From: a virus
DNA: 45,962 nucleotides
IMG/VR virus record: IMGVR_UViG_3300012936_000031
Location: 1-45,962 of that record
Reading direction: 5' to 3' (one strand)
Positions 8,363-35,700 of the stretch are shown here, piece by piece. The position numbers and the translations under genes were made by a program. Position 1 is the first letter of the stretch. Each line of letters opens with the position of its first letter. The notes below the pieces were generated by a model that saw only the letters and a list, made by a program, of their open reading frames with translations, searched no databases and was not told where the DNA came from.

Positions 8363-8387
8363 AAAAACAATTACGAAGTAATTTTTT
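8363..8387 (-). terminator. Bidirectional intrinsic terminator candidate
   Basis: An inverted repeat, AAAAACAATTAC (8363-8374) with GTAATTTTTT (8378-8387), has a triloop, and on the minus strand the stem opens out into TTTTT. It lies downstream of the structured region 8400-8751 and upstream of the late promoter at 8263. On the minus strand it would end the transcript that starts at the gp55-gp47-gp46 operon before it enters the late genes. Confidence 0.45.
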
Positions 8388-8399
8388 AGCATCATCTAG

Positions 8400-8751
8400 A
8401 TATTTGAGCCACAATTCGCCCGTTGCCGGGCAAATTAGTAGTAATAACATCATCTGAGTTATCGTCACCACACCTGTTAAAGAAGATTAAATTGTAACAT
8501 ATAGTTTACAATGTAAATTATATGCAACATTTCACGGAGGCGGCAGACCTTCAACCCCCTACTTCAGCATTCGCAAATCCGCGGAAAGCAGTTAATCCCT
8601 AACAGTCGAAATCACTTGCTTTGTGGTTGTATCTTTTTCACAGAGCCACATCTTTTTATGCCTTAAGTTAGCATTATCCTTGCAACGCACTAGTATCTGA
8701 ACGTGATATCCGTAAGATATACGTCCTCAAAGTGAGTCGAGGTACCCCGAC
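8400..8751 (-). ncRNA. Candidate structured RNA of unknown family in a 538-base gene-free region
   Basis: No gene is visible between 8236 and 8773. The part from 8400 to 8751 is less A+T-rich than its surroundings and is packed with inverted repeats: 8736-8751 (GTCGA with CCGAC), 8726-8736 (CTCA/TGAG), 8701-8724 (ATATC/GATAT extended by ACGT), 8622-8650 (TGTGG/CCACA), 8585-8622 (AAAGCA/TGCTTT), 8536-8559 (GGAGG/CCCCC), 8505-8517 (TTTACA/TGTAAA), and 8418-8431 (GCCCG, 4-base loop, CGGGC). Two of these stems are complete only on the minus strand, where an A-C mismatch becomes a G-U pair, and the 8418 loop reads GCAA (GNRA type) only on that strand. I therefore place the RNA on the minus strand, downstream of the nuclease gene and ending near the terminator at 8363. 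I could not match it to tRNA, tmRNA or a group I intron. Confidence 0.4.
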
Positions 8752-8773
8752 CAAACAATGTTGCTATGTAAAA

Positions 8774-9223
8774 TTAAGCCTTGCTTTTGATATGTCTTTC
8801 GAGAAGTGCCTTACGCAGTTTATCTGAACCGCCTACTCTAACATTAATAATGCCATTGTAGTAATCGTCGGATTCTAAAACCCTACGATCAAATTGTTCT
8901 CTAGCCTCTATGTAACTCATCTCTGCCCTGTTTGTGCAAAAGTAAAGTATTTCTCTTGTGAAGTTTTGTGGACCTAAATTGTCCACATCTGATTGTAGTT
9001 TATCGGAGGAACCCCAATATTCTTTCCAATCTGATTCTTTGTGGCCTCTGCGTTTGTTCTTTTTGCCTTTTAGAGGTGGCTTTGTAGTTTTAAATTTGGC
9101 TAATTTTTTGCCTATGTACTTTTTGTTGTTGGTAATATTTGTAATAAGATAAACAAATCCTTCATATTCTTCTGGAATACTGTCAATGTTTTTGCCTTCA
9201 TATGTCCAACTAGGATTTTCCAT
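8774..9223 (-). CDS. GIY-YIG-type endonuclease
   Basis: A 149-residue protein with a GIY-YIG-like signature. GFVYLITNITNNKKYIGKK (about residues 22-40) carries the Tyr-containing first strand and the YIG motif of this nuclease fold. Conserved features of the phage branch follow: ESDWKEYWGSSDKL (residues 63-76), NFTREILYFC, and a downstream Glu in MSYIEAREQF that could be the metal-binding Glu. The family includes homing endonucleases and repair-type nucleases; small stand-alone copies such as this are common in T4-like genomes. It is the last gene of the minus-strand recombination operon and overlaps the upstream gene by 14 bases. The start at 9223 has no strong ribosome site, which fits translational coupling. 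Whether it is mobile (homing) or domesticated cannot be told from the sequence. Directly downstream lies the structured RNA candidate. Confidence 0.7.
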   Translation of the reverse strand: MENPSWTYEGKNIDSIPEEYEGFVYLITNITNNKKYIGKKLAKFKTTKPPLKGKKNKRRGHKESDWKEYWGSSDKLQSDVDNLGPQNFTREILYFCTNRAEMSYIEAREQFDRRVLESDDYYNGIINVRVGGSDKLRKALLERHIKSKA

Positions 9224-9455: not shown

Positions 9456-10000
9456 TGTAAATTAGGTCCTGTAAAAAACATTGCAAGGGATTTCCTTGTG
9501 CCTTTGGTAACAGGAGTTACTCTGTGCGGTATATAACTTGGAAATACCACTAGTTGTCCTGAACCATTAAAGGATTCAATTTTTTGTTCACCATTAACAA
9601 ATATACTAAACTCACCACCTTGATATTTTTCGGTGCTACAATCTAGTAATGCTGTTAATTTTATATCATAAGGTTCGTTTCGTACAGCATCTATATGCCA
9701 ACTATATTCGCCTTTCTTTTCACTTGTATATTCATTGTATAATAATGTTAAAAAGTCATTTACATTATGTAGATTAAATCCAAAAAAGTTTTTGTTTACA
9801 TCATAAACAATATTAGTAAGTCTTTCTATTTCTGGTTTAAGATCACCGTATGTAACAACATCAACATCGGAAGTTTTTGTAACACCCTGTGCAGGCAAAT
9901 CGCCATAGTGATTTACAATATTTTTTTGAATAGCAATATTAAGATCTGTTAGATCTTGAGGAGTATATGCTTCATCTACACAGTAGTAATCGAACTTCAT
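9452..10000 (-). CDS. 2-oxoglutarate/Fe(II)-dependent oxygenase (prolyl-4-hydroxylase type)
   Basis: A 182-residue protein with the double-stranded beta-helix signature of prolyl-4-hydroxylase-like dioxygenases. The iron ligands are visible as His102 and Asp104 (YSWHIDA) and His159 (PSYIPHRVTPV). The 2-oxoglutarate-binding basic residue is in GTRKSLAMF at about Arg169. The YQGGEFSIF strand is also typical. Such enzymes hydroxylate protein side chains, or sometimes nucleic acids or small molecules, using O2 and 2-oxoglutarate. The substrate here is unknown. The family is very common in marine T4-like phages. Its start overlaps the gp46 stop (ATGA at 9997-10000), so it is made together with the gp46/gp47 nuclease. 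Length is typical for the phage versions and no key residue is missing. Confidence 0.85.
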   Translation of the reverse strand: MKFDYYCVDEAYTPQDLTDLNIAIQKNIVNHYGDLPAQGVTKTSDVDVVTYGDLKPEIERLTNIVYDVNKNFFGFNLHNVNDFLTLLYNEYTSEKKGEYSWHIDAVRNEPYDIKLTALLDCSTEKYQGGEFSIFVNGEQKIESFNGSGQLVVFPSYIPHRVTPVTKGTRKSLAMFFTGPNLQ

Positions 10001-11769
10001 TGTACAATCTCAATATCATTTGAATAACTTGTAAAGCCATTTTCCTTAATAACTTTTAACACGTGATTAACACGACCTGCTAAATCGTCTCTATGTGAGA
10101 TAAGAAATACGTTTTTGTTTCTTTCACGTGTCATTTTCTTAAGAATACTAATAGCACTTTCAACACCTGCACTATCCATACCACTGTCAACAAGTTCGTC
10201 AATAAACAATAAGTTGATACCGTGATACAACGATTCCCAAACGTCTCTAAATGCCCAACTTAGACTTAAAATGAGTCTATTTCGTTCACCTCTACTGAGG
10301 TTATCGAAGTCTAAGTCCTGTCCTAGTTGTGTAATAACCACTGTTAAATCGTTCTGAAACTCTACAATATGTGGCAATCCAACCTTTGCAAGATAGTAAG
10401 TTAAGCGTTGATTTAGATATGCTAAATTCTGTTCAATAATCTTTTTACGTACAAAACTGTCTTTGTTTGTAAGCAGTTTATATAAAAAGTCCTGATGATC
10501 TTTTACTTTAGTCAGTTCATTTAGCGCATCAAAGTTCACTTCTTGTAGTGCTGTTTCTTTTAATTCTTCTATTTGTTCAAGATATGGATTGTCTTCTGCA
10601 CGTTTTTGTTCTAATTCTTTTTGTAAACTTTCAACTGTGTTACGGTGATTGTATGCTTCTTCAACACTATCATATTCTGTGTGCGGACAACTTTCTAATT
10701 CTCCAATTTCATCTAGTACTGCCTTATGCTCTTTGTATTGTTCATCATTTGAAAGAATTTGTTGTGCTGCTTCTGCTAGTAAGTCTTCTTTTCCTTTTAG
10801 GATTTCACCTTGTTTATTGTCGTGCAAATCTTGTCCACAAGCATAACACTTATGATCTTTTAAATCTGCAATTTCTTTTTCTAACTTTGTAATAGTTTTT
10901 TCTTGTTTTTGATTGTCAGCAGTAATGTTTGCCATCCAACGTTCTGCTTCTTCCTTTTTACGCTTTCTATCATTAAAACGTTCCCAACATTTATGTGCTT
11001 CAATTTCTGCTTCAATATTAATGCGTTCAAGTGCTTCGATACTTCTTTCTAGTTCACTTAAATTAGTAAGTTTGTTATCTTCCCATATTTTTTGTTTGCG
11101 TTCCAAACTTTCAATGTTTTGTTGTATTCTTTCGTTGCTGGCTTTTATAGTTTCAATTTTTGTATTTTCTGCATTAATGTCGTCTCTGTTAATGCGCATT
11201 TTTTCTTTCAATGCTTCTGCTTTTTCAGACAGCAAAGTAATACCAAGAAGTTGTTCAATAATCATTCTTTGATCATTGTTTTTCATACTTAAGAAAGGTT
11301 CAGTGTAAGTGTTCAATGCTAGAATATGTTTGAACATATCGTGACTCATTCCAAATAAGTCTTCTATCTCTTTCTGTGTTTCTCTAGAATCGCCTTGACT
11401 TTCATCTTGACTTACTTGATCTTCACCGTTCACAGTAAACTTTGTGATATTAGGCTTACGTCCTCTATGAATAGAATAGTTTACGCCATTCTTTTCAAAA
11501 TCAATAGTAACAAGCATTCCTTTACCGTTGATTTTGTTAATAAGATTATCACGTTTAATGTTTGTAAGTGCATTACCATAGATTGCATAACTTAGTGCAT
11601 TGACGATAGTAGTTTTACCAGTGCCGTTTCTGGAACCGCTATCGTCTCCGCCTAAGTCTAGGTTTTCACCTAGCACTAGTGTAAGTTCTCCTTTGTCAAA
11701 ATCAATTGCTTGAGTTTGATTACCTACACTCATAAAATTTTTGACTGTAATATTTTTAATTCTTATCAT
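9997..11769 (-). CDS. gp46: Recombination endonuclease subunit gp46 (Rad50-like ATPase)
   Basis: A 590-residue SMC/Rad50-type ATPase. With gp47 it processes DNA ends for recombination-dependent replication and host DNA breakdown. In order: an N-terminal lobe with Walker A GSRNGTGKT (residues 45-53), a first coiled coil at about 180-300, a zinc hook CYAC (Cys308, Cys311), a return coiled coil up to about 410, the ABC signature LSRGERNR (491-498), Walker B LLFIDE (520-525), and the H-loop SHR (558-560). Length is close to T4 gp46 (560). An unusual acidic insertion (LDLGGDDSGS) precedes the Walker A loop. The start overlaps the gp47 stop by ATGA (11766-11769), so expression is coupled and a fixed ratio of the two subunits is expected. 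Confidence 0.95.
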   Translation of the reverse strand: MIRIKNITVKNFMSVGNQTQAIDFDKGELTLVLGENLDLGGDDSGSRNGTGKTTIVNALSYAIYGNALTNIKRDNLINKINGKGMLVTIDFEKNGVNYSIHRGRKPNITKFTVNGEDQVSQDESQGDSRETQKEIEDLFGMSHDMFKHILALNTYTEPFLSMKNNDQRMIIEQLLGITLLSEKAEALKEKMRINRDDINAENTKIETIKASNERIQQNIESLERKQKIWEDNKLTNLSELERSIEALERINIEAEIEAHKCWERFNDRKRKKEEAERWMANITADNQKQEKTITKLEKEIADLKDHKCYACGQDLHDNKQGEILKGKEDLLAEAAQQILSNDEQYKEHKAVLDEIGELESCPHTEYDSVEEAYNHRNTVESLQKELEQKRAEDNPYLEQIEELKETALQEVNFDALNELTKVKDHQDFLYKLLTNKDSFVRKKIIEQNLAYLNQRLTYYLAKVGLPHIVEFQNDLTVVITQLGQDLDFDNLSRGERNRLILSLSWAFRDVWESLYHGINLLFIDELVDSGMDSAGVESAISILKKMTRERNKNVFLISHRDDLAGRVNHVLKVIKENGFTSYSNDIEIVQ

Positions 11770-12776
11770 AGGTCTGAATATATCTCCGTTAACATACGCT
11801 TGTCATATGATTCGCTGTCAAGTTGCTCTATCTGATTCATAACAATAGTATCAACACTTTCAAATGAAAGATCAATAGGATCTACATTTGACTCTACTTC
11901 TACTTTTTCTGGAATCAACATAAGTTCACGTAACTTAAATTGCGGAATAAATTGCTCTTTAATAAAGTTTGCTTCTTCAAATGTAATCTGAATATCAATA
12001 GTAACCCTGGCGTGCATCTTTTCTCTTAGATGATCCTCAGGCTTTTCTAACAGTTGTGACAGTTTGAATGTTCTATAAACAGGTTGTCCAGGCCAAGTTT
12101 TATATTCAGGCTTACCGCCCCATTCTAAAAACATCAATCCACGATCATCGTCCCACGCATCTGCGTAGTTGTGTGGAAATGCATTACCGATGTACGTTAC
12201 GTTTCCTTTTGTTTGACGTTGATGAAAGTGTCCACTGAAAACGTATTCTTGATTAACAAAGTGATCTGCCTGTAGTTCACCGTGATCAGGCATTTCTACC
12301 ATTGCATTCATTTTAAAGTATGGAAGTTCAAAATGACCAAACACATATCTACTTTGTATGTCTTTAACTTTTTTCCATTCTTCACCTACAAGCCACGGAA
12401 GCAGTGTAACTTCTCCTTCTGTAAGTTGATCTGTAATCGGAACGATATTAGGAAACAACCTCATAAATTCGATACTGTTAATCTCACGTTTGTCTTTGTA
12501 AAACAAATCGTGATTACCTACCATAAAGTAAGTTTTCTCGAATGTGTTGTTTAGCCTTTCTAAATTAGAAACTGTATAGTTCATTGTGCTGACATCAGTA
12601 GTCGCACGGTTATGGTGCCAGTCTCCTAAAAATATACAAGTCTCAGCACCAGCGGCTTTTGCTTCTTCGCAAAACCATTTTATAAATTCTTCACAATCTA
12701 TATTGTGTGTTCTACTTCCTGATTTCATACCAAAGTGAATATCAGTAAAGCAGGCTGCTTTCTTAAATAACGGCAT
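11766..12776 (-). CDS. gp47: Recombination endonuclease subunit gp47 (Mre11-like phosphoesterase)
   Basis: A 336-residue calcineurin-like metallophosphoesterase, the nuclease partner of gp46. All the metal and catalytic motifs are present: FTDIHFG (Asp12, His14), GDWHHN (Asp52), GNHD (residues 87-90), GHFE (His148) and SGHFHQ (His183, His185). The remaining 100 residues form the C-terminal capping and gp46-binding part. Length equals T4 gp47 (339). The start is supported by AGGAG 6 bases upstream. There is a 51-base gap to gp55, the only appreciable spacer within the operon, in which I see no clear promoter. Confidence 0.95.
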   Translation of the reverse strand: MPLFKKAACFTDIHFGMKSGSRTHNIDCEEFIKWFCEEAKAAGAETCIFLGDWHHNRATTDVSTMNYTVSNLERLNNTFEKTYFMVGNHDLFYKDKREINSIEFMRLFPNIVPITDQLTEGEVTLLPWLVGEEWKKVKDIQSRYVFGHFELPYFKMNAMVEMPDHGELQADHFVNQEYVFSGHFHQRQTKGNVTYIGNAFPHNYADAWDDDRGLMFLEWGGKPEYKTWPGQPVYRTFKLSQLLEKPEDHLREKMHARVTIDIQITFEEANFIKEQFIPQFKLRELMLIPEKVEVESNVDPIDLSFESVDTIVMNQIEQLDSESYDKRMLTEIYSDL

Positions 12777-12827
12777 CTGTTCTCCTACACTTTAAATTGT
12801 ACCTTATACCTAGCAAAAAGTCAAGTA

Positions 12828-13670
12828 TTAAGATTTCTTTTTTCCTTTATCGTGATTTGGATGAGACTCGGCGTTTTGCCTTGTCCAACTTGGATTCATT
12901 CCGTTCATTTCTAATATATCGTCTCGTATATTTTGGTTACGTTTTTCTATATTAATGATACGAACAAATGAATTAGTAACAGCAGCGGTATAGTAAGCAA
13001 AAGGATTATTACTTTTAGATTCATCAAACTGTAGTCCTATTTGTGCCAATTGTAAAATTGCTTGGCCTTTCATTTCGTCATTGTAAGTGTAGCCTCTTAC
13101 GTTTCCTCTTGTTGCATACCGATCACATAGTTTCATCCACATTCTAGCCAAATCGTCTGTTGCTTTACCACACTTTCCATCAAAGTATCCGTTTTCCATA
13201 CCTCCAACCCAATGGCTTTTTCCTACACATATCAAGTTGTCTTTTTCGTCAAACTTCCAATGCTGGAAAGGAGGAAAGTTTACTTTTACGTGTCTATCTG
13301 CTACAGTCTTTTTTGTTTTCTTTCTTCCAAGATCTTCTGGAACGTGTTCAAACGTCATTACCCTAAATACTACTTCGTGTTTTTTAATCTTTCTATAATC
13401 AATTTCAAAGTTTTTAAGTGGAATCTTTTTTCCTGCTGCTTCTACTGCTGCTTCGTGATTTTGCTTTGCTAATCTAACTGCACGATTACGTTTTGCTTCG
13501 GCAATTGTTCTTATGTTAATTTTTTCTAGACTTGGTAAAATTAAGTCGTATTGGTTGAACTCGTCGTCGGTAAAACTGCAAAAAGTCGCTTTGCTTTTAT
13601 GTATTTCCGACAAAAGGTCCTTATTTGTCAAATATTTGATTCTTTTGGTCATAATAATATTGTTCTCCAT
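12828..13670 (-). CDS. gp55: Late-transcription sigma factor gp55
   Basis: A 280-residue protein whose C-terminal half (about 170-255) is the gp55-type sigma region 2 that reads the TATAAATA late promoter. The diagnostic stretch contains LCDRYATRGNVRGYTYNDEM, then GLQFDESKSNNPFAYYTAAV and IEKRNQNIRDDIL. T4 gp55 has 185 residues. The extra N-terminal 160 residues (with IKYLTNKDLLSEIHKSK and KVNFPPFQHWKFDEK) are, as far as I recall, shared by marine T4-like gp55 proteins. The C-terminus ends in a Lys/His-rich tail. Start choice is uncertain: the ATG at 13670 has no ribosome site, whereas a second ATG at 13652 is preceded by GGAG at a 12-base distance. It is the first gene of the minus-strand recombination operon and diverges from the baseplate operon whose late promoter it presumably activates. 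Confidence 0.9.
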   Translation of the reverse strand: MENNIIMTKRIKYLTNKDLLSEIHKSKATFCSFTDDEFNQYDLILPSLEKINIRTIAEAKRNRAVRLAKQNHEAAVEAAGKKIPLKNFEIDYRKIKKHEVVFRVMTFEHVPEDLGRKKTKKTVADRHVKVNFPPFQHWKFDEKDNLICVGKSHWVGGMENGYFDGKCGKATDDLARMWMKLCDRYATRGNVRGYTYNDEMKGQAILQLAQIGLQFDESKSNNPFAYYTAAVTNSFVRIINIEKRNQNIRDDILEMNGMNPSWTRQNAESHPNHDKGKKKS

Positions 13671-23100: not shown

Positions 23101-23757
23101 GAGCCTACACTTCCTACAACTGAAGATTTAAGAATAGCATTCGGCAGTGGTTTAAATGCAATTAAATCAATAAGCGATGAAATAATCTATCATCCTGTAC
23201 AATATAAAGTTTTATTTGGATCAACAGCAGAAGAAAAACTACAAGCACAGTTTAAGGTTGTAAAAAATCCTAATAAAAATATTAATGACAATAATTTAAA
23301 AGTAAGAATTGTAAATGCAATTAATACTTTCTTTGGAGTTAATAACTGGGATTTTGGCGACAGATTTTATATGAGTGAATTGACAACTTATGTAGTAAAT
23401 TCTGTTTCACCGGACGTTACAAACTTTGTTATATTGCCAAGAGATCCAAGACAAGTATTCGGAAGTTTATTTGAAATTCAAAGTAAGCCAGATGAAATAT
23501 TTGTAAGTGGAGCAAGAGTAGACGATGTTGAAATTGTTTCTAGTATTACTGCTGCTGAAATTAGACAAGGCAGCGGAACAGTTATTAACGCCGGAACTGA
23601 AAGTTCAAGCACAAGTACTAGTTCTTCTTCCACCACAAATTTAACATCAGTTACTACAAGTACAAGTAGTACAACAAGTACCAGATCTAGCAGTTCAGGA
23701 TCTAGCAGTTCAGGATCTAGCAGTTCAGGTTCAAGTGGTGGAGGTTCTAGTTACTAA
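20197..23757 (+). CDS. gp6: Baseplate wedge subunit gp6, enlarged, with Ser-rich tail
   Basis: A 1186-residue protein. The N-terminal region is gp6: WTRIYQTFKNADFKSYDFEN, then LRENYPEDFNDYIESSEYIA, FRLDLASRENFIELADRKES and ARMLSYNAKRNIPAQG, typical of the dimerising wedge protein that forms the inner baseplate ring with gp7 and gp53. A second conserved stretch, RAPASYYTQNRMITGEDYNL at about residue 425, and a C-terminal domain (from about 990) with YKVLFGSTAEEKLQAQF and LTTYVVNSVSPDV also fit. T4 gp6 has 660 residues, so about 400-500 residues in the middle (roughly 470-960) look like an insertion. The last 50 residues are a Ser/Thr/Gly tail encoded partly by a 15-bp tandem repeat. The stop overlaps the next start (TAATG). 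Confidence 0.85.
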   Translation: MSTTARQNNLILNEDWTRIYQTFKNADFKSYDFENLRRVIINYLRENYPEDFNDYIESSEYIALIDAIAFLGQSLSFRLDLASRENFIELADRKESVLRIARMLSYNAKRNIPAQGLLKFTSLNTTEDIVDSNGKNLAQQTVRWNDPTNTNWSEQFILLLNAAMSDNTEFGRSQGTANIGGIPTEQYRFRSFSSDVPVFSFAKSVSGRNMVFELFSSTFKDSEEIYEEAPTPGNQVGFVYRQDGQGPASTNTGFYMMFKQGSLELADFTIDVPTTNERVAIESQNINNNDVWLFNLNANGSQGSEWLKVSNLLGNNIIYNSIAGDTRDIFSVATKEDDKVDLVFADGVYGNLPQGSFRTYYRVSNGLNYTISPNELRNINVSIPYINKSGARHTLTVGLGLQYSVNSATGSESADQIKERAPASYYTQNRMITGEDYNLAPLTTSQNILKVKAVNRTSSGISRNIDIIDASGKYSSLNVFGDDGYIYKQESERYLSFKFTSSTDIINFIRNKVEKVFSDTDVYNFYITKFDKILFSETNITWNSITNDINSGTGYFVNSVDNSLLKTGNYTTNNLKYIVPGASVQFVAPEGKHFMPDGTLMDGEADHQGSSTYRWTKVVSVNGDGTNAGRGVLPTGLGPIVFSDNIPSGAIATRIVAKFTNDISSAIESQMVTICSNNLNFGLRYDVTDSQWKIIQNANLNLTDGFSLGKAGDVTNENLDASWLVAFVKDNDQYIIRIRSLDYIFGSVQQNRFYFDKNDKAYNNITGLLEKDKIKVLSINKKFNNADSLINDYEFEVDDTIKFDDGYESSKEIKIAFADKDSDGVVDDPQSFENIVGLDLDLQFLYFKSEIDTYGSLVYNLLDNTVANIVAIERESQVNINNYEDGQLIYFYDVNENVIKSVNKTTNTLDLEPDYKAEVGRQNLKFQYTHAASSDRRVDPSSTNIQDIFILTRSYDTAFRNYLAGGSVEPTLPTTEDLRIAFGSGLNAIKSISDEIIYHPVQYKVLFGSTAEEKLQAQFKVVKNPNKNINDNNLKVRIVNAINTFFGVNNWDFGDRFYMSELTTYVVNSVSPDVTNFVILPRDPRQVFGSLFEIQSKPDEIFVSGARVDDVEIVSSITAAEIRQGSGTVINAGTESSSTSTSSSSTTNLTSVTTSTSSTTSTRSSSSGSSSSGSSSSGSSGGGSSY
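23684..23728 (+). repeat. 15-bp tandem repeat, three perfect copies, in the gp6 tail
   Basis: GATCTAGCAGTTCAG is repeated three times without a mismatch (23684-23698, 23699-23713, 23714-23728). A degenerate fourth unit follows. The repeat is in frame and encodes the pentapeptide unit SSSSG in the Ser-rich C-terminus of gp6. Perfect short repeats of this sort expand and contract by replication slippage, so copy number probably varies between relatives. Confidence 0.9.
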
Positions 23758-26700
23758 TGGCTAAAAAGAAGTTTCCAGATAGTCAAGTACCAATTAGAAA
23801 GTCCTCAGACTTTTTACCTGATGTCTTTAAGACTGCTGCAAATAAAAAATTCTTAGGCGGAGTATTTGATCCTTTAGTACAACCAGGAGTTCTACAAAAA
23901 ACTACAGGTTACATTGGACGCAGATATGGTAAAACATTTAGGCCTGCCGACACATACTTAGATACTGATCAAACTTTAAGAAGTAGATATCAATTAGAGC
24001 CAGGTGTTACAGTTGAAGTTGATCAAGAAAAGAAAAATTTTTATGATTATCTTGATTTAAAAAATGTTTTAAATTACTTTGGCAATTATACTGATAGAGA
24101 TGATCAAACAAACAGTCAAAAACATTACAGTTGGAATGCTCCTATTGACTGGGACAAGTTTGTAAACTATAGAGAATACTTCTGGGTACCAGAAGGACCT
24201 GACAGTGTTCCTGTACAAGGTCAGAACATTACTGTTACTTCTACGTACAAAGTTACACCAGGCATAGGTTCAAGTTGGATTTTTACTCCAGACGGAGCAA
24301 CAAATAATCCTACTATAGTTTTGTATAGAGGTCAAACTTATAGATTCGAAGTAAACAGTCCGTTAGAAGGATTTGTTATAAGACAAAATTATGATACAGG
24401 AAGTTTAATATATAATCCTTTACGTTTTTACCAAGCAGGCGAATATGCAATATTTGATAATAAACTTTGGCGTGCAAAGGTTGATGTTGAAGCAAGTGAC
24501 GGAAGCACTATTACAGTAGACAGTCAAGATTGGGAATTAATTGATTCTACTGGTTCTACAGACAGTTTAGTGTTTAATGAAGGCGTTACAAACAATGGTG
24601 CTAAAAGAGGAATCATTGAATGGACAGTTCCTCTTAATGCTCCTGAACTTATCTACTATCAAAGTGACACTGATCCTAATAGATTAGGACAGTTTGTAAT
24701 TTCTGATATTGAAGATGCAACATTTATAGATGTTGAAAAAGAAATATCAGGCAAAAAAGATTATACAAGTGCAAATGGTGTGAAGTTTACAAACGGGCTT
24801 GTTGTTGAATTTAGAGGTTTAGTAGAACCTGCACAATATGCTACAGGTAATTGGTTAGTTGAAGGTGTAGGAACAGAAATACACTTAACACAATTTACTG
24901 ATTTAGTGCCACCACAAATTACAAATGATAATCCTGATGTGATATTTGACAATGAAGGGTTTGATACTAAACCGTTTGATGATGCTACACAATATGCAGG
25001 AACAAAAGATTACCTTGTGATTAACAGGAACAGTAAAGACTCGAATCCTTGGTCTAGGTATAATAGATGGTTCCACAGAAGTGTCCTTGAATATGCAGCA
25101 AGTGTAAGAAACACAGACTTTGAAGCAACAGAATCTGCTAGGGCTAAAAGACCAATTATAGAATTTAATGCTAATATTCAACTGTTCAATCACGGAGGTG
25201 TAGCAAAGCAAACCGTAGATTATATTGACGATTATACAACAGACATCTTTAGCAATATAGAAGGAAGTACAGGTTACAGTGTTGATGGTGAATTCTTATT
25301 TGAAGGAGCAAGAGTACTTGTAACCAATGATACAGACATTTTAGCAAACAACAAAATTTATACAGTAAGATTTATTGACCATAACGGTAATACACAAATT
25401 AACCTGCGTGAAGCAGATGATGCAACACCTATAGAAAACGAATGTGTTCTTATTAGAAGAGGTACACAAAATGCAGGAAAGATGTATCACTATGACGGGC
25501 AGCGTTGGAACAAAAGTCAAGAAAAACTAAAAGTAAATCAATATCCTCTATTTGATTTATATGATGCATCAGGTACAAGTTTCAGTAACCAAACTTCTTA
25601 TCCTGTATCTACATTTACAGGAAGTAAAATTTTAAGTTACGCAGAAGGTAACGGAAGAATTGATAATGAAACAGGTTTAAACATTAAGTATCTCAATATA
25701 GATAATGTTGGAGATATAGTTTTTGATTGGAACTTAGATAAAGATAGTTTTTCATATGCACAACAACAGGAAACTATTACTATTCCAGAAAGTATTGGAT
25801 ACTTTAAAATAAATGACAAAATGCAGAATGGTTGGATAGATACTGATCCTGAATATCTTCAACCTATTATAGATTCTGTAACAGTTATTGAAGATACAAA
25901 TATAATTGACTTTTCAAATACAATCGACTGGACAAAACAAACTAGCAATTCACAAATTATATTTTACAAAAATGGTGAACCTATTGTTGAAACACCTGCA
26001 AACAATTACGGAATATTTACATTTGCACAAACATTTGTAAAGAATGATGTTGTAAGTATAAAAATTGTTGATGATGTTAGCCCTAATTTAGGTTACTACG
26101 AATTTCCTGTAGGTGTTGAGAAAAATCCATTAAACAGTAAATTAAAAGAATTTACACTTGGACAGTCTATAGACCATATTAAAAGTTGTTTAGAATTTAA
26201 TACTAATTTTTCAGGTACATTACCAGGACTTAATAATCTTAGAGATATTTCAGATTATCAAAAGCACGGAAAAAGGTTTTTAAAGCACAGCGGAATAGCC
26301 GCTGGCGCTATCGCGTTGCTCAGCGACAAAAACTGGAACGTTATCAAATCCATTCAGTACGCAAAATCTAGTTACACTACATTTAAAGAAAACTTTATTA
26401 AAAAAGCAGGTGAAATTGATTTTGAAGAAGTAAATGCTGATTTTGTTGATGCTATTATACAGGATTTATCAAAAACAAAAAGTATAGAAAGTCCATTTGC
26501 AGATTCTGATATGATTGGTGCAGGCGCATATACTTCTATTGATTATACAGTTGAAGATACAGGAATAACAACGTTTGCATTAAGCGAATCATTTAGCACC
26601 ACAGTATTATCAAGACGTGCAGTTTACGTATACATTAATAATAATCAGTTGCTTTTAGGAACAGATTATACTATTGATGCAACATTCGGTTTTGTAAGAA

Positions 26701-29700
26701 TTTCAAAAACATTATTTGAAAATGATCAAATACAAATTAGAGAATATGCATCTACTTCATTTAGTCATATTCCTCCAACACCAACAGCATTAGGTTTATA
26801 CAAAAAGTATACTCCTAAAAAATATTTAGATGAATCTTTGCAAGAGCCAAGAAATGTAATACAAGGACACGACGGTAGTATAACTGTCGCATATGATGAT
26901 TATAGAGATGATATTTTATTAGAATTAGAATATAGAATCTATAATAATATTAAAAACAACTATGACGAAAATGTTTTTAACATAGATGCGTATGTAGGTG
27001 GTTATTACGGAAACGCACAGTTTAAAAAACAATTAGTTGACGACATTGTCAGTCAAGAATTTTTAAAGTGGATTGCGAATACAAATCTTAACTATACGTT
27101 AAACAGTTTCTTCGAAGACGGAAATCCATATACGTATACCTACAGTGAAATGACAGATCGTCCTGGAAATGAAAATTTACCAGGATGGTGGAGAGGAGTA
27201 TACAAATACTTCTATGATACAGATAGACCACATACACATCCTTGGGAAATGCAAGGATTCACAGAAAAGCCATCTTGGTGGGATGAAGAATATGGTGAAG
27301 CACCATATACTAATGGTAACTTGATTCTATGGGATGATATTAGAGATGGAATAATAAGGCAAGGTGATAGAGCAGGAACTTATCCGCGTTATGCAAGAAC
27401 AAGCATTAGGAACCACTTGCCGGTTGATGCAGATGGTAATTTATTAGATCCTTTAACAAGTGGCCTAGCAGGTAACTTTACATTATTCAATAATAAAGGT
27501 GGATTTAAATTAGGTGATTATGGACCTGTAGAAAATGCTTGGCGAACAAGTGCTGAGTATCCGTTTGCAATGACCATTGCAATGTGTTTGTTGAAACCTT
27601 TTGAATTTATTATAAGCAACTTTGACAGATATAAAACCACAACAAACATTTTAGGACAGATTATTGATAAAGACACAGGTACATTTATTACACCTAGTGA
27701 ATTGATATTACCTATTGCAGGGTTTACACAAACGTCAGGACTAGCAAATTACATTGCTTCTTATATTAAAGGAAAAGGCCAAAATGTTGCAGACATTCAG
27801 GCTGAATTAAATGGCATAAATGTAAGACTTTCTAGTAGACTAAGCGGATTTGTTGATAAAGAACAACAACGTTATCTCTTAGATAGTAAAAACCCTTCGA
27901 GTACATCTTCAAGCATTTTTATTCCTACAGAAAATTATGATATTTTATTTGATATAAGTGCGCCTACATCAAGCCTTACATATAGCGGAATTATCTTTGA
28001 AAAAACTGCCAGCGGTTGGACGTTGGCTGGTTATGATAATATTAAGCCATATTTCGAATACTGGGAATCTGTTCCAAACCAAAAAGATCCTACAATCATT
28101 ATTGGTGGTGTTAGTGTAGGTTTTACAGTATTCGATTTTGGTTTAAAATACACTAATGGTCAGATAGTTGAATATCGAGGATCATATTATAGAGTTAAAG
28201 AATCTTTTACAGCAGGTGATGAATTTGATGAAAGTAAATTTACAAAACTTCCAGATTTGCCTGTTGAAGGTGCAATTACAGCACAGCGCCGCCGCAATTT
28301 TAATAAGACACAAATAAAAAGACTTAGTTACGGAACACAGTACAATACAATTCAAGAAGTTGCAGATTTTATTTTAGGTCATCAAGAATACCTAAAAGAT
28401 CAAGGATTTCTTTTTGATAACTATGACGGGACTACACAGTCTGTACAAGACTGGACAACATCACTGAAAGAATTTATGTTCTGGACACAGCATAACTGGG
28501 CTGTAGGTTCATTGCTTACTGTTTCTCCAGGAGCACAAAAATTAACTATTACTACTCCTGTTGGTGTTGCTGCAAATTTACTTGATACTTTTTATGATTA
28601 TAATATTTTAGGAAGTAACGGTTCTCCGTTAGATTATAGAAATATTGATGTATTAAGAGATTTTCAAACTTTTACAATCACAACTACAGATACCACAGAA
28701 GGAATGTATTATCTTAAAGTTAATACTATCTTGAAAGAACACGTTGTTGTTTTTGATGATAGGACTGTTTTCAATGACGTGTTGTTTGATAAAACCAGTG
28801 GATACAGACAAGAAAGAATTAAAACAAATGGATATAGAACTACAGACTGGGATGGAGATTATACTTCTCCAGGGTTCCTATTTGATAATGTAAACATTGC
28901 AAGTTGGCAACAAAATAGAGATTACAAACTTGGCGATATTGTAAAATATAGAGCAGATAATTTTACAAGTTTATTAAATCATACCAGCGGTGAACAGTTT
29001 GATGATAACAAATGGTCTTTGCTAGACAGCACACCAGAGAAAAGACTTGTTCCAAACTTTGATTATAGAATTAACAGCATCGAAGATTACTTTGATGTTG
29101 ACACAGATGGCTTGTCTAAAACTGAAAGAGAACTTGCAAGGCATACTGTAGGATATCAAACTAGACAATATCTTGAACAACTTGCAGAAGATCCTGTAAC
29201 ACAATTTAAAATTTATCAAGGTATGATCAGAGAGAAAGGTACTTCTAATCCTATTACAAAAATCTTTAATAAACGTAATAATGCAGGCAGTGCCGGTGTC
29301 AACTTAGATGAAGAATGGGCATTTAAAGTTGGTACAATGGGAGGTGCTGATCAATCTCGTTATATTGAACTTGGACTTAACATTGATAATTTTAAACTTA
29401 ATCCACAACCAGTTATAATAACTGATGAAAAAGGCGAGTTTTTAGACAAGTATTATAGAGTAAACCAGTCAAATTTTGATTACACACCAGTGCCTTATAC
29501 AAATAATGTAACACCATTAAGTGCAAATGCAAAACCTTTAAAAACAGCAGGATATGTAAAACTTGGTCAGACAGATTATACAGTTCGTTCAAGAGAAGAT
29601 ATTCCTACAATAGATGTTGCTAGTGTTAAAAGAGGTGAACACGTTTGGATTACATTTGATAAACAGAGTTGGAGTGTGATTAGAATTGAAGAAGCATATC

Positions 29701-32700
29701 ACTTACCTATCGCTCAAGTAGATACTGATCAATTTACAGTAGAAGTAATTTTTGATAAAAGACACGGTTTTAATGTAGATGACTATATTGGAATAAGAGG
29801 TATAGAAGGAATAGACGGATTTTATAAAATTGATTCTGTAACTCCTACTACAATTACGTTTACTACAACTGAGAAACAACCTAAAGCAGAAAGACAATTA
29901 AGTACTTCAGTTTATCCTATATATTTTGAAGAGTCTAGATTTGCAAATTACAATTTGCTGACAGATGAAGATATAGCATTACTTCCTAGTAAAGGCAAGT
30001 TGTTTATTGACAGTAATGATTCTAGTAAATGGGAAGTAGTAGAAAAGAACAGTGTTTATGATAATAAAAAAATTACAAACTACGGATTAACAGATCCACG
30101 TAAAGTTGGAGAAAAAGTTGTTTACAGTGATATACTAAAACAAACTTTTGCAAGTGCATCGCAAACTCCTAGAGTAATGATTTACTTAGAAACTACACAG
30201 GGGTTAAGTGTTAAACAAATTTTACAACCACCTGATACACATATTGATAATGTATTAGGATCGTTTGGTTTAGAACTTGCGTTAAGTCCTGATAGTAAAT
30301 GGCTTGCAGTTGGCTCTCCATTTGCAAATGGATTAAACAGTAATTACAGAGGTGAGTATAGTCCTTTTGTGTCATATGGTGCAGGAAATATTGTGCTTTA
30401 TGCAGGAAAGTTATACGAAGCGATTAATCCAACAGTTGGTGATGGAAGTAGTATTTCAGTTTACAATAGTGACTGGCGTGTTACTAGAACTGTTGAAGTT
30501 GTTGACACAGGAGTAAACGATGGTTATACTCAGCAAGGTGTTGTGCATCTTTACAAATACGCCGGCGATCAATGGGTATTTGATAGAGCAATTATAAGTC
30601 CAAGACAGTTTGAATATGAACACTACGGTAAAAGTATTTCTTTATCATTAGACAATAATGGAGTATACCATATGGTAGTATCTGCTCCTGGAAGTCTACA
30701 CAGAAAAGGTAGAGTTTACATTTACAGTTACGATGCAACAAATGATAAATGGCAACTTGATACAAATGAAAAATATTTTGGAGAATACAATCCAGGTGAA
30801 ATTTTCTTTGAAGGTGTAGCAAGTCCTACAGTAGATATAGATGGTAATGCTAGACCAGAGTTACAAATAAGTGAAATTGGTGATAGCACACCGTTGATGG
30901 GTAAGATTGAAGTAGGTGCAAGAATTACTGGTGAAGGCGTGCCAGACGGAACAATCATTGTAGCGCAGGATAGTGGTACACCTGGCGGTGAAGGTGTTTA
31001 CTTAATAAACAAATCTTTTAGCACAGCAAGTGTTAGAATGAATGCAAATTATTATTATCCTACAGGAAGTATTGTATTTTACAATGGAAGTTATTGGGAA
31101 GCACAAGCAGACAACTATGGTGACGGAAGCACAATTAGCATTGATAGTAATGACTGGTTAAAACTTGATCCTATAGCATCACAAGGTATGCTGCCGCAAT
31201 CTGTAGCACTTGAAGATGACGGTAGTAGTTTGTATACTGGACTATTGAATGAAAATCAAGTTGCTGAACTTGTAATGAATGGACACGAATTCGGTACAGT
31301 TGTAAAAACAAATTACACTGGAGATACTTTAGTCGTAGGTGCTCCGGATGCAGATGGCACATTCTTCCCTAACTATAAAGGTATTTGGCGTCCTGACTAT
31401 GAGTATATGGAAGGAGATATAGTTAAGTTTAATAATTCTTATCATAGATTAACAAACATTGGACCTAATCAAGTTCCGGCTGATAGTACAATCAGAAGTT
31501 ATAATGAAGAACCTGTTGGTTATCCTTGGGTTGATCAAGGTGATAGCACAGAAAAACTTACTGGAAAGATTTTTATATACAAGAAAAACACAGTAGGCAC
31601 TTATGAACTTACACAAACTATTACTGCTGATAATTTAAGCGAGATAAGTGATATTGAAGAAGAAGTAGATATTAATATTGGTGACAAGTTTGGTTATGAT
31701 ATTTCAATAGATTATAGTGCTAATCAAATTGTAGTTACTAGTCCACAAGCAGATATTAATTTCCAAAATCAAGGAGCAGCATTTGTATTTAGGTATGAGT
31801 CAGATTCATCTGTAAACAGATATAGATTAAAACAAAAATTACAAAGTTTTGATAAGTTTCCAAATGAATTCTTTGGACAAAGTATTTGTATGAGTGCAAA
31901 TCAAGAAATTATTGCAGTGGGTGCAAACAACAGTCCTTACAATTTACCTGCTATGTTTGACAACAGTCAAACAGCATTTGATCAAGGCCGAACTACATTT
32001 AGGAATTATGAAGGCTTCAGTGGTAGTGTTTATGTATTTGAAAGAAAAGCAGATAGATATCTACTTACTGAGAAACTTGATGCGGAACTTTCATTAAATG
32101 AATCCTTTGGTAACAGTATATCTTGTGATAAAGATATTATTGTTGTTGGTTCTCCTGATTACATTGAACCTTTACCACACGGTGTTCAATTAGCATATGA
32201 AGGTGAAAAAATAGGAACTGTTAGACACTTTAAGAAACCGGCAGGAGTCAAACCGTTGACTGTACTATCTACACAGGCTGACAATGTAGATATAGAACAA
32301 ATCAAGCGTGTTGCAATTTTTGAAAAAAATGACGATGTAAAATTAACTGATTTAGAATATTTTGATCCTGCAAAACTTAAAATATTAAATGCAGCAGAAA
32401 GAGAACTTTCTTTTAAAGTTCCGTATGATCCTGCTGTGTACAGTGTCGGTACAGAAGATGTAACAGTTGATAACAATATTGCTTGGAACAGCGGAAAAAA
32501 TGTTGGTAAACTATGGTGGAACATAGGTAATGCTAAATGGATTGACTATGAGCAAGGAGATATGTCTTATAGAGTTGGCAACTGGGGTACACAAGCAGTA
32601 GGAAGTACTATTGACATTTATGAATGGGTGTCTTCACCGTTATTACCAAGTGAATGGTCAGTGTTAGCAGACACAACAGAGGGATTGTTAAACAACATAT

Positions 32701-35700
32701 CAGGGCAACCTTTGTATCCTAATGATGATGTTTACAGTGTTAAAGTTTTACTTGATCCAATTACTGGTTTAGAAACAAGTACAACATACTTTTATTGGGT
32801 TAGAAATAAAACTATTGTACCTAATGGAGTAGTTGGCAGAAATATTAGTGCATCTGCTGTTGCTAATTTAATTAACAATCCAGTTTCCGCAGGAAATACA
32901 TTAATCACTTTTGTAGATAGCAACAAATTTGTATTTTACAATTACAGAAATCAAATTAATGTAGACGATACAATTTTAAATATTGAATATTATAACAATA
33001 AAGATAATAAAAATGCTGTGCATAACGAATATATGTTAATCACAGAAGGTGTAGCAGATAGTTTACCAAATGCTAAACTAGAACACAAATGGATAGACAG
33101 TTTAATTGGCTATGATTTACAAGGAAATAGAATTCCTGATACAAGTTTACCTGTGAAACAAAGATATGGTATTTCATTTAGACCAAGACAAAGTATGTTT
33201 ATTGATAAACGTGGTATTGCACAAATTACTATTGAAAAGATTAACACAGTTTTAAAGAAAGAAGCATTTGCTGACACAATAAATTATACTACACTTAATA
33301 GTAAAGATGAACTTCCTTCGGAAATATTAAAACTGTATGATACTAAAGTTGACTTTTATGAAGACTTAGAAAATGTAGGTACAACAAGAGTTAAGAAAGC
33401 AGTCCTAAGTGTAAACTTAGTTGACAATGCAGTTAACAGTATCAATATTTTAGATCCTGGATACGGTTATAAAGTTGCTCCGGATATTGAATTTGAAGGT
33501 GACGGTGTAGGTGCTGTGGCAACTACAACTATTGATAACCAAGGTAGAATTAATTCAGTTAATATTATAAATGGTGGTGCAAAGTACAGAAATATAATTG
33601 CTAAAATTAGAGAATTTAGCGTACTTGTCGAAAACGATTCTACTGCAAATAATTTCTGGAGCATTTATGCCTGGGATGATCAAAGACAAGTATTTTTTAG
33701 AAGCCGCTCACAATCTTATGATACTACAAGGTACTGGAGTAAAGTTGATTGGTGGCAAGAAGGTTATGGATCAACTTCGAGAATTGTACGTGAAATTTTA
33801 AGTGTGTATCAAGAACCTACAGTTTCTTTACAAATAGGCGATCTACTTAAAATAAAAGAATATGGCGCAGGCGGATGGGCTGTATTTGAAAAAGTTACTG
33901 ACAATGTAACAACAGTATTGCTAGGCAACTATAAATTAATTGGTAGACAAAATGGTACTATAGAGTTTAGCGACAGATTATGGAACACAAAAACAAGCGG
34001 AATAGGTTTTGATATAGTTGATGCATTTGATGCAGGTTTATATGATAAAGAAGTTGCATTAGAATTAAGAAATATTCTAAATGCAGTAAAAAATGAAATA
34101 TTCATTGCAGATTATGCAGTGGAATGGAATTCATTGTTTTTTGCTGCTATTAGATATGTGTTCAAAGAACAAACATACGTTGATTGGGCATTTAAAACAA
34201 GTTTCTTAAATGCAACTCATAATATTGGAACTTTCAAAACTACTCCTACTTATAAAGGTGATAACTTAGAATCTTACTTACAATATATAAATGAAGTTAA
34301 ACCATACAGAACTACAGTCAGAGAATTTATCAGCAAGTATGATAATACAGATAATGCAGGATTGCAGACCACTGACTTTGACTTACCACCTGTATACGAT
34401 CCTGAAGTAGGTGCATTAGTAAATGTAGATGAAAATAATGAACTTATAGATACTTTCCCATACAAGAATTGGAAAGATAATAAAGGTTATAGCATTACAA
34501 GTATCATAGTAAGTGATCCTGGTAAAGATTACACTACTGTTCCTACAATTGTTATCGAAGGTAATGGTACTGGAGCAAAAGCCAAGGCTTATATAAGTAA
34601 TGGAAAGGTTAGTGGTGTATCTATTGTTGAAGAAGGTAAAGGATATACCGGAATACCTAAGGTAAGCATTGTTGGCGGTAACGGAAGTAGTGCTTATACA
34701 GCAAAAGCAGTTGCAGTTTTAGGCAATGGTGCTGTTAGAACAATTAATATTACACAAAAATTTGATAGAATAACAAAAGAAGGTACTTACCAAAACTTTA
34801 ATTACGAACAAACATTTACAGCAAGTGGATCTAGTTCGGTATTTGAACTACTTTATCCTTGCAGTATTGACAAGTCAAAAATTACAATCCTTAAAGATGA
34901 CCAATTAGTTCTCGAAGATGAATACATTGTAGAACTTTATAATCAACTTGTAGATGGATACAGTGTTTTAAAAGCAAAAATAACATTTAAATTAAATCCT
35001 GTAGCAGGAAGTGTTATTAAAGTAACATATGAAAAGAATGATAACATCTTAGATGCTGTAAGCAGAATTACTAAATTTTACAATCCTGGCACAGGTATGA
35101 AAGGCACTGACAAAAACCAACTTATGACAGGTATAGACTTTGGTGGAGTGCTTGTACAAGGAACGACTTTTGATGTTACAGGCGGTTGGGACGCATTACC
35201 TTGGTTTACAGATAGTTGGGATAGTGTAGAAGCAGCAGCAGATTTTTATGTAGTGTGCGACGGAAGTACAAATACTGTTACACTTCCTTACGTGCCAGAA
35301 GAAGGCCAAGAAATTAACGTTTACTTAAAACGTGCAGGTGAAGAAGTATTACCTGATATTTTAAATTTACAGTTAGAAGAAGGTGTTAAAGAGCCACCAA
35401 CTGTGCGTATTGACGATCCTAATTATGATGATAACTGGGATAGTAGCGTTAGAGCAAATCCAAATGCACAGATGCCAACTTTTTATGGTGATGGAAGTAC
35501 GAAAGTAATAGAGATAGGAGATTACGTATCTACAAATGATGGAGATATTTTAATTTTTAGACCATCTTCATCAGACGGTAGTGTAACAATTAATGATCCT
35601 AATATCGTAGACACAAATATTACAGGCGGAACTTTATCTAATATGGCAGGAGCCTACACAACCGCAACTGGAAAACTTGCAGAAGAAATACAAATCGACG

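Follow-up and report, generated by a model that had tools for sequence, protein, structure and literature searches.

GOLLD and ROOL are large pseudoknotted phage RNAs of unknown function, and HEARO, or omegaRNA, is a structured RNA that adjoins and partly overlaps an endonuclease gene, that of IscB. Nearer to the case treated here, the Polynucleobacter-1 RNA (Rfam family RF01718) was reportedly described by Weinberg et al. 2010. This 2010 motif from Burkholderiales and fresh water is listed as probably an RNA, of unknown function, and is scored 'y' for cis-reg, i.e. as probably cis-regulatory (PMC2864571, Table 1). A full-text literature search returned no further paper naming RF01718.

The stretch of DNA analysed here, hereafter the window, is a virus-record fragment of 45,962 bases from an uncultured T4-like phage, whose minus strand carries in order the genes for gp55 (late sigma), gp47, gp46, a 2OG-oxygenase, an 81-aa protein, and a SegE-type GIY-YIG nuclease. 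Between the end of the nuclease coding sequence at 8774 and the start of the next one, for a structural protein, at or below 8259 lies a gap of about 500 bases. It holds no coding sequence, as an earlier note made from the letters alone had said of positions 8400-8751, and the G+C content of that interval exceeds that of the window (41% against 35%), again as described. A large structured noncoding RNA is predicted on the minus strand, running from 8773 down to about 8363; the note was thus correct in placing a folded RNA at 8400-8751, but its true extent is larger. The 3' end was set at the T-run and the 5' start at the nuclease stop codon, and the RNA may begin some 10-20 nt inside the last nuclease codons, at a conserved AAGGC. 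The RNA is taken to be noncoding because its longest stop-free run is 49 aa against a shuffle average of 61. Elsewhere in the window, gp55 has a better match in PHROG 12791 than in the family usual for T4, and the structural region at 23757-37763 is a single reading frame of 4668 codons.

The predicted RNA is, like GOLLD and ROOL, a large pseudoknotted phage RNA, but it has no sequence or covariance-model match to them, measures about 400 nt, has no tRNA in the sequence scanned around it, and contains duplicated heptamers. As with HEARO and IscB, a structured RNA adjoins and may partly overlap an endonuclease gene; unlike that pair, it has no Rfam match, its nuclease is of GIY-YIG or PD-(D/E)XK type and replaceable, and no link to a single nuclease family exists. 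Searched against Rfam at the gathering threshold and at E up to 10, the window matches no family, including GOLLD, ROOL, HEARO, OLE and the candidates that had been named for exclusion, tmRNA, manA (RF01745) and wcaG (RF01761). The manA and wcaG motifs were rejected on this ground, and tmRNA on negative ARAGORN and Rfam results in the window, with none in the relatives scanned; ARAGORN found no tRNA in the window or the loci scanned. A group I intron was likewise rejected, having no Rfam match, and the RNA sits between intact genes in the window; a plus-strand group I intron, suggested by GACUAG-like and AAGAUAUAG-like motifs, was dropped for want of Rfam support.

The nuclease gene and the parts of the RNA are as follows, in window coordinates, with the basis of each assignment where one applies:

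8774-9223, minus strand: SegE-type GIY-YIG nuclease (PF19835), directly upstream of the RNA, an adjacency also seen in relatives.
8363-8773, minus strand: whole structured RNA gene (homologous gap in relatives, model match, covariation, boundary comparison).
8682-8764, minus strand: 5' domain (RNAalifold on near relatives).
8764-8760 (GCAAC) with 8686-8682 (GUUGC), minus strand: long-range stem of the 5' domain (one significant covarying pair in the type-A alignment).
8752-8735, minus strand: inner hairpin of the 5' domain, GGUCGGG[GUAC]CUCGACU (arms co-vary).
8734-8731 (CACU) with 8691-8688 (AGUG), minus strand: further stem of the 5' domain.
8622-8650, minus strand: hairpin UGUGG (8650-8646) / CCACA (8626-8622) with a conserved GCUCUG-GAAAAAG loop.
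8585-8620, minus strand: hairpin AAGCA.GUGAUUUC / GGGAUU.ACUGCUU with a pseudoknot strand in its loop.
8600-8605, minus strand: pseudoknot 5' strand CUGUUA, in that hairpin loop, pairing with UAACAG at 8479-8474.
8474-8479, minus strand: pseudoknot 3' strand UAACAG (matched strand pairs, 16-sequence alignment).
8482-8565, minus strand: stem GAAG (8565-8562) / CUUC (8485-8482) around an inner hairpin.
Within 8482-8565, minus strand: that inner hairpin, GGGGG (8559-8555) / CCUCC (8540-8536).
8489-8535, minus strand: hypervariable palindromic hairpin insert (missing or substituted in relatives, from alignments).
8449-8455, minus strand: heptamer X1, AGAUGAU, in a hairpin loop closed by AUAAC (8462-8458) / GUUAU (8448-8444).
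8415-8434, minus strand: hairpin UUUGCCCG-GCAA-CGGGCGAA between X1 and X2 (used as search pattern).
8391-8397, minus strand: heptamer X2, AGAUGAU, a second identical copy (co-changes with X1).
8363-8384, minus strand: UUCG hairpin and T-run, a terminator-like 3' end (sequence).

Taken singly, the minus strand (404 nt) folds 2.8 standard deviations better than dinucleotide shuffles (z = -2.8; 0 of 100 as good) and the plus strand 1.9 (z = -1.9). The 'at least eight inverted repeats' of the earlier note do occur on the minus strand when G-U pairs are admitted (8 hairpins of 6 bp or more, against 5.3 expected), but this count is near chance, 14 of 200 shuffles reaching 8, and is weak evidence alone; with Watson-Crick pairs alone there is one. 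Because the hairpin number lies so close to chance, the single sequence was insufficient to settle whether an RNA exists.

Covariation was looked for in homologous intergenic regions and was present: a conserved, covarying minus-strand fold with a pseudoknot bears out the structured RNA that had been proposed. In an alignment of 16 sequences, running from the GUGG/CCAC hairpin to X2 and comprising 46 named pairs including the pseudoknot, 91% of cells are paired and 23 of the 46 pairs show two-sided changes, with 0 of 500 shuffles reaching any of the values for this structure. When the partners are slid, pairing falls to 44-55%, a control biased toward the structure because the window, on which the structure was drawn, served as guide; the shuffles and the two-sided changes are independent of that guide. 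Compensatory changes extend to eight helices, the pseudoknot among them. The hairpin at 8622-8650 has changed on both sides at 4 of 5 pairs (two of them significant against a tree-based null) and that at 8585-8620 at 10 of 13, and the GAAG/CUUC stem recurs as AGAG/CUCU, GGAG/CUCC, UGAG/CUCA, AGAA/UUCU, GGAU/AUCU and GGGU/ACCU. The closing stem of X1 shows compensatory variation that re-dealt flanks equalled in 0 of 1000 trials; the hairpin at 8415-8434, with 100% of cells paired in the 16 sequences, has one pair changed on both sides. In the 5' domain, the arms of the inner hairpin occur as GGUCG/CGACU, GAUCG/CGAUC, GAUCUAG/CUAGAUC and AAUCAAG/CUUGAUU.

No alignment is needed to follow the pseudoknot: in at least nine sequence versions the loop of the hairpin matches the strand lying upstream of X1, namely CUGUUA:UAACAG, CUGUUUG:CAAACAG, CUUGUUA:UAACAAG, CUUGAUA:UAUCAAG, UAGCGUU:AACGCUA, CAGCGUU:AACGCUG, AUAGCAUU:AAUGCUAU, CUGAUU:AAUCAG and CUGAUC:GAUCAG. 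A tree-based test modelled on R-scape, in which substitutions were re-dealt along a Fitch reconstruction (E up to 0.1), returned 3 significant canonical pairs for the window's own kind, type A, and 7 for type B; the low type-A figure reflects a set dominated by one clade. Counted over the paired positions of the conserved fold, G-U combinations fill 82 cells and A-C combinations 8; this assigns the RNA to the minus strand, and the earlier argument from G-U pairs holds good. So do two of its details, a GCAA tetraloop present on the minus strand only and a terminator-like hairpin near 8363, which is AAATTACTTCGTAATTGTTTTT at 8384-8363.

The family to which this RNA belongs was approached through both its neighbour and its own structure. 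At least 597 relatives of the nuclease were found in IMG/VR, and 80 loci were kept. Where the sequence is long enough, nearly all of these leave a gap of about 450-550 nt, free of genes, right after the nuclease; in eight loci the gap aligns to the window over most of its length at 76-83% identity, in others partially. Two gene-independent pattern scans with the 3' hairpin yielded 113 type-A and at least 120 type-B contigs in IMG/VR, both counts being lower bounds, and 175 different RNA sequences were extracted. A covariance model of the 3' domain (R1), trained on type-A sequences only and with E-values that, as for any home-made model, are rough, scores 121.7 bits on the window at 8390-8569, the window itself having been in the training set; the window carries both marks of the family, this 3' domain and two identical heptamers flanking the 3' hairpin. 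Independent support comes from the conserved structure and from the type-B loci outside the training set: searched over 231 kb, the model recovers 20 of 22 where they were expected and hits nothing else. For 15 of these E is at most 0.02; for the other five, at E 0.03-0.22, it is position, and not score alone, that convinces.

Outside these contigs the RNA was not encountered. BLAST with five RNA versions against 50,697 phage records gave no convincing match (staphylococcal matches were short, covering at most 10% of the query), the exact type-A hairpin pattern is absent from 84,980 prokaryote genomes, and the RNA is absent from the regions inspected in the nearest two cultured SegE lineages and the nearest cultured gp46 lineages (Melnitz, S-SRM01, phiM12, B23, V45v66, RHph_I1_18, S-SM2, phiN3, PA5oct, Phosso and Atu_ph07). 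The nearest cultured gp46 relatives stand at 49% identity; for the window's gp46 (9997-13670) the closest are the jumbo phages Phosso, PA5oct and Atu_ph07, at 47-49%. By these comparisons of sequence, the predicted RNA belongs to a new family, present on well over 200 contigs from uncultured phages of aquatic origin, most of them T4-like.

'Undescribed', the word of the earlier note, stands for the window, which has no Rfam match and is mostly new, but not for the whole family. Six contigs with the same 3' domain match RF01718 (covariance-model score of at least 37 bits taken as criterion) over its full 141 positions at 63-78 bits; the match is the first 141 nt of the RNA and, where inspected, starts directly after the nuclease stop. 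RF01718 thus stops after the 5' third of the complete RNA, and the window, whose 5' module is of other sequence, shows no match to it even at an E of 10. Comparison of boundaries revealed mosaics, several type-B RNAs carrying a type-A 5' hairpin, and the 5' domain is swapped for other modules in relatives, RF01718 being one of these. From the six matches and the type-A/B mosaics, the predicted RNA is modular, with an exchangeable 5' module and a conserved 3' module. Palindromes similar to the insert at 8489-8535 (CGGTGTAGCGTATA...) lie at varying sites in type A and type B RNAs (e.g. L039, L096, L106, L142 and L178), and such inserts may be mobile elements. The UUCG hairpin recurs in relatives, many type-B members having no T-run after it.

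The most distinctive feature is the pair of heptamers. In the window X1 (8455-8449) and X2 (8397-8391) both read AGAUGAU, and more than 20 variants of the heptamer occur among the phages. In a rule-based set of 170 sequences, X1 and X2 are identical in 160, in 12 versions, and the other 10 differ in the last base only, although the rule might favour similar copies because it demanded a loose pattern. On trees built without the repeats, X1 and X2 changed together (same branch, position and base) 37 times out of at most 41 change events, where chance would give about 0.8; type A contributes 21 co-changes (from 24 X1 and 21 X2 changes) and type B 16 (from 16 and 17). Distant members found by the model carry GGGAAAU, AGCGAAA, ACCACAG, AGCACAU, ACUUGAU or GUAUGAA, each in two exact copies at the same spacing, as read by eye and then confirmed by string search. 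X1 and X2 are thus kept identical as the heptamer varies from phage to phage. Searches by co-change and by string turned up no sequence complementary to the heptamer, either inside the RNA or less than about 1.5 kb away, the co-change search giving one weak and unconvincing column (5 of 6 events among about 4000 tests), and the complement is not enriched on the window's sense strands as antisense targets would be.

SegE lies upstream of the RNA in 135 of 146 unique loci with enough upstream sequence, most of the remainder having a PDDEXK_15 nuclease (PF24608) in the same slot after gp46, and searches seeded with alternative nucleases found the RNA beside more distant SegE and PDDEXK_15 genes. 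Exceptions occur: SegE is inverted between gp46 and the RNA in L332, L333, L336 and L352; it follows the RNA, in reverse order, in L197 and L240, from a phage that is not T4-like, while L230, which goes with these two, is cut at the contig end; L254 and L260 have the RNA away from gp46 and any nuclease. An RNA strictly bound to SegE was dropped in view of the PDDEXK_15 and inverted loci. We conclude that gp46 is the shared anchor in T4-like phages and that the occupant of the nuclease slot can be exchanged; the RNA, occurring as it does in other contexts, positions and orientations too, is a gene in its own right. Transcription with the gp55-to-nuclease operon, as first proposed, is possible, but is not required by an RNA also found in other nuclease contexts and orientations. 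As side observations, the RNA precedes SegE in L324 and L326 too, as in L197 and L240 (5230-6164), all non-T4-like; the slot after gp46 is a swap hot spot holding SegE, PDDEXK_15 or, nearby, an extra GIY-YIG homing-type gene (L177 and others); and L254 also encodes proteins resembling, by sequence, ClpP, tRNA lysidine synthetase and Bax inhibitor.

The reading we favour, with a rough probability of 0.55, is a trans-acting two-site scaffold that presents one recognition sequence twice. The RNA folds into a modular, pseudoknotted scaffold whose 3' module displays the heptamer in two settings, X1 within a hairpin loop and X2 downstream of a stable hairpin. Acting in trans, it would offer two equivalent contact sites to one partner, which could be a nucleic acid of complementary sequence or a binding protein, encoded by phage or host, whose specificity differs between phages. 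With the sites held at a fixed distance, a single RNA could engage a pair of partner copies, or a single partner at two positions. The RNA would probably arise either by release from the early gp55-gp47-gp46-nuclease transcript or by synthesis in parallel with it, and would end at the UUCG hairpin. Against this stand the lack of a heptamer complement nearby, the T-run missing in many type-B relatives, and the conserved position after gp46, which a cis-acting element could explain too. The partner may be a protein or a nucleic-acid target, and the RNA may instead assemble with itself. A narrower proposal, to be held only tentatively, is a two-site guide or decoy RNA whose duplicated, fast-changing specificity determinant evolves with a trans partner, and which may work with the neighbouring nuclease; to our knowledge, no RNA class described so far is built in this way.

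Much less probable than the two-site scaffold is a cis-acting element, namely a leader controlling the next gene, or else a 3' UTR or attenuator that keeps the late structural genes apart from the early gp55-gp46-nuclease operon. The RNA does have the early operon on one side and, on the other, a late gene whose ATAAATA at 8269-8263 resembles a late promoter, and Polynucleobacter-1 was scored as cis-regulatory (PMC2864571, Table 1). The downstream genes nevertheless differ, two families making up 55 and 33 of 114 same-strand genes with the rest scattered, and in 23 of 137 loci the first long open reading frame downstream is on the opposite strand. In the window a terminator-like hairpin and two more hairpins separate the RNA from the late promoter, the RNA occurs in other contexts too, and a leader would have no need of a duplicated, co-changing heptamer. 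The two further hairpins, GCGUUGAGCGUUAGCGAAAACGC and AGAGAUCUUUAGAUCUCU, lie at 8329-8288; a motif, UUGAGCGNNAGCGA, occupies the same spot with co-varying stems in type A, B and C loci, and ATAAATA comes just after it.

About level with the cis-acting element is a self-assembling ornate RNA in the manner of GOLLD or ROOL, whose loop-loop helix and heptamers would be interchain contacts. The style of architecture is shared, that of a phage RNA with a conserved 3' and a variable 5' region and a kissing-type helix (PMC12286853), but there is no Rfam match to GOLLD, ROOL or OLE, the RNA is about half the size of GOLLD, and the heptamers, being identical and not complementary, do not pair mutually and have no complement in the same RNA.

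More doubtful still is that the RNA serves the nuclease next to it as a guide or scaffold, the heptamers acting as short guides, much as omegaRNA does for IscB. SegE or PDDEXK_15 adjoins the RNA in nearly all informative loci, the non-T4-like context keeps RNA and SegE adjacent in reverse order, and in many type-B phages the 5' end of the RNA overlaps the last nuclease codons. The RNA stays, however, while the nuclease is swapped for an unrelated fold (PDDEXK_15) or inverted (L332, L333, L336 and L352), and L254 and L260 lack a nuclease of either kind nearby. In those cultured phages that were inspected, SegE relatives come without gap or model match, gp46 is the common neighbour in T4-like phages, and homing endonucleases settling beside a conserved gene would also explain the adjacency. 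That there is no RNA at all, merely chance hairpins or a pseudogene remnant, would suit a hairpin number barely exceeding shuffles but is refuted by the covariation, with its controls, in eight helices including the pseudoknot, and deserves practically no credence.

These aquatic phages, in their hundreds, share a conserved and elaborate predicted RNA of which Rfam has one 141-nt fragment of one subtype; since such phages hardly tolerate spare DNA, the RNA must pay its way. RF01718, until now an orphan motif, becomes a 5' module within a larger phage RNA. The co-changing heptamers offer a rare functional clue, narrowing the question to which partner recognises seven letters, and in that form it is testable.
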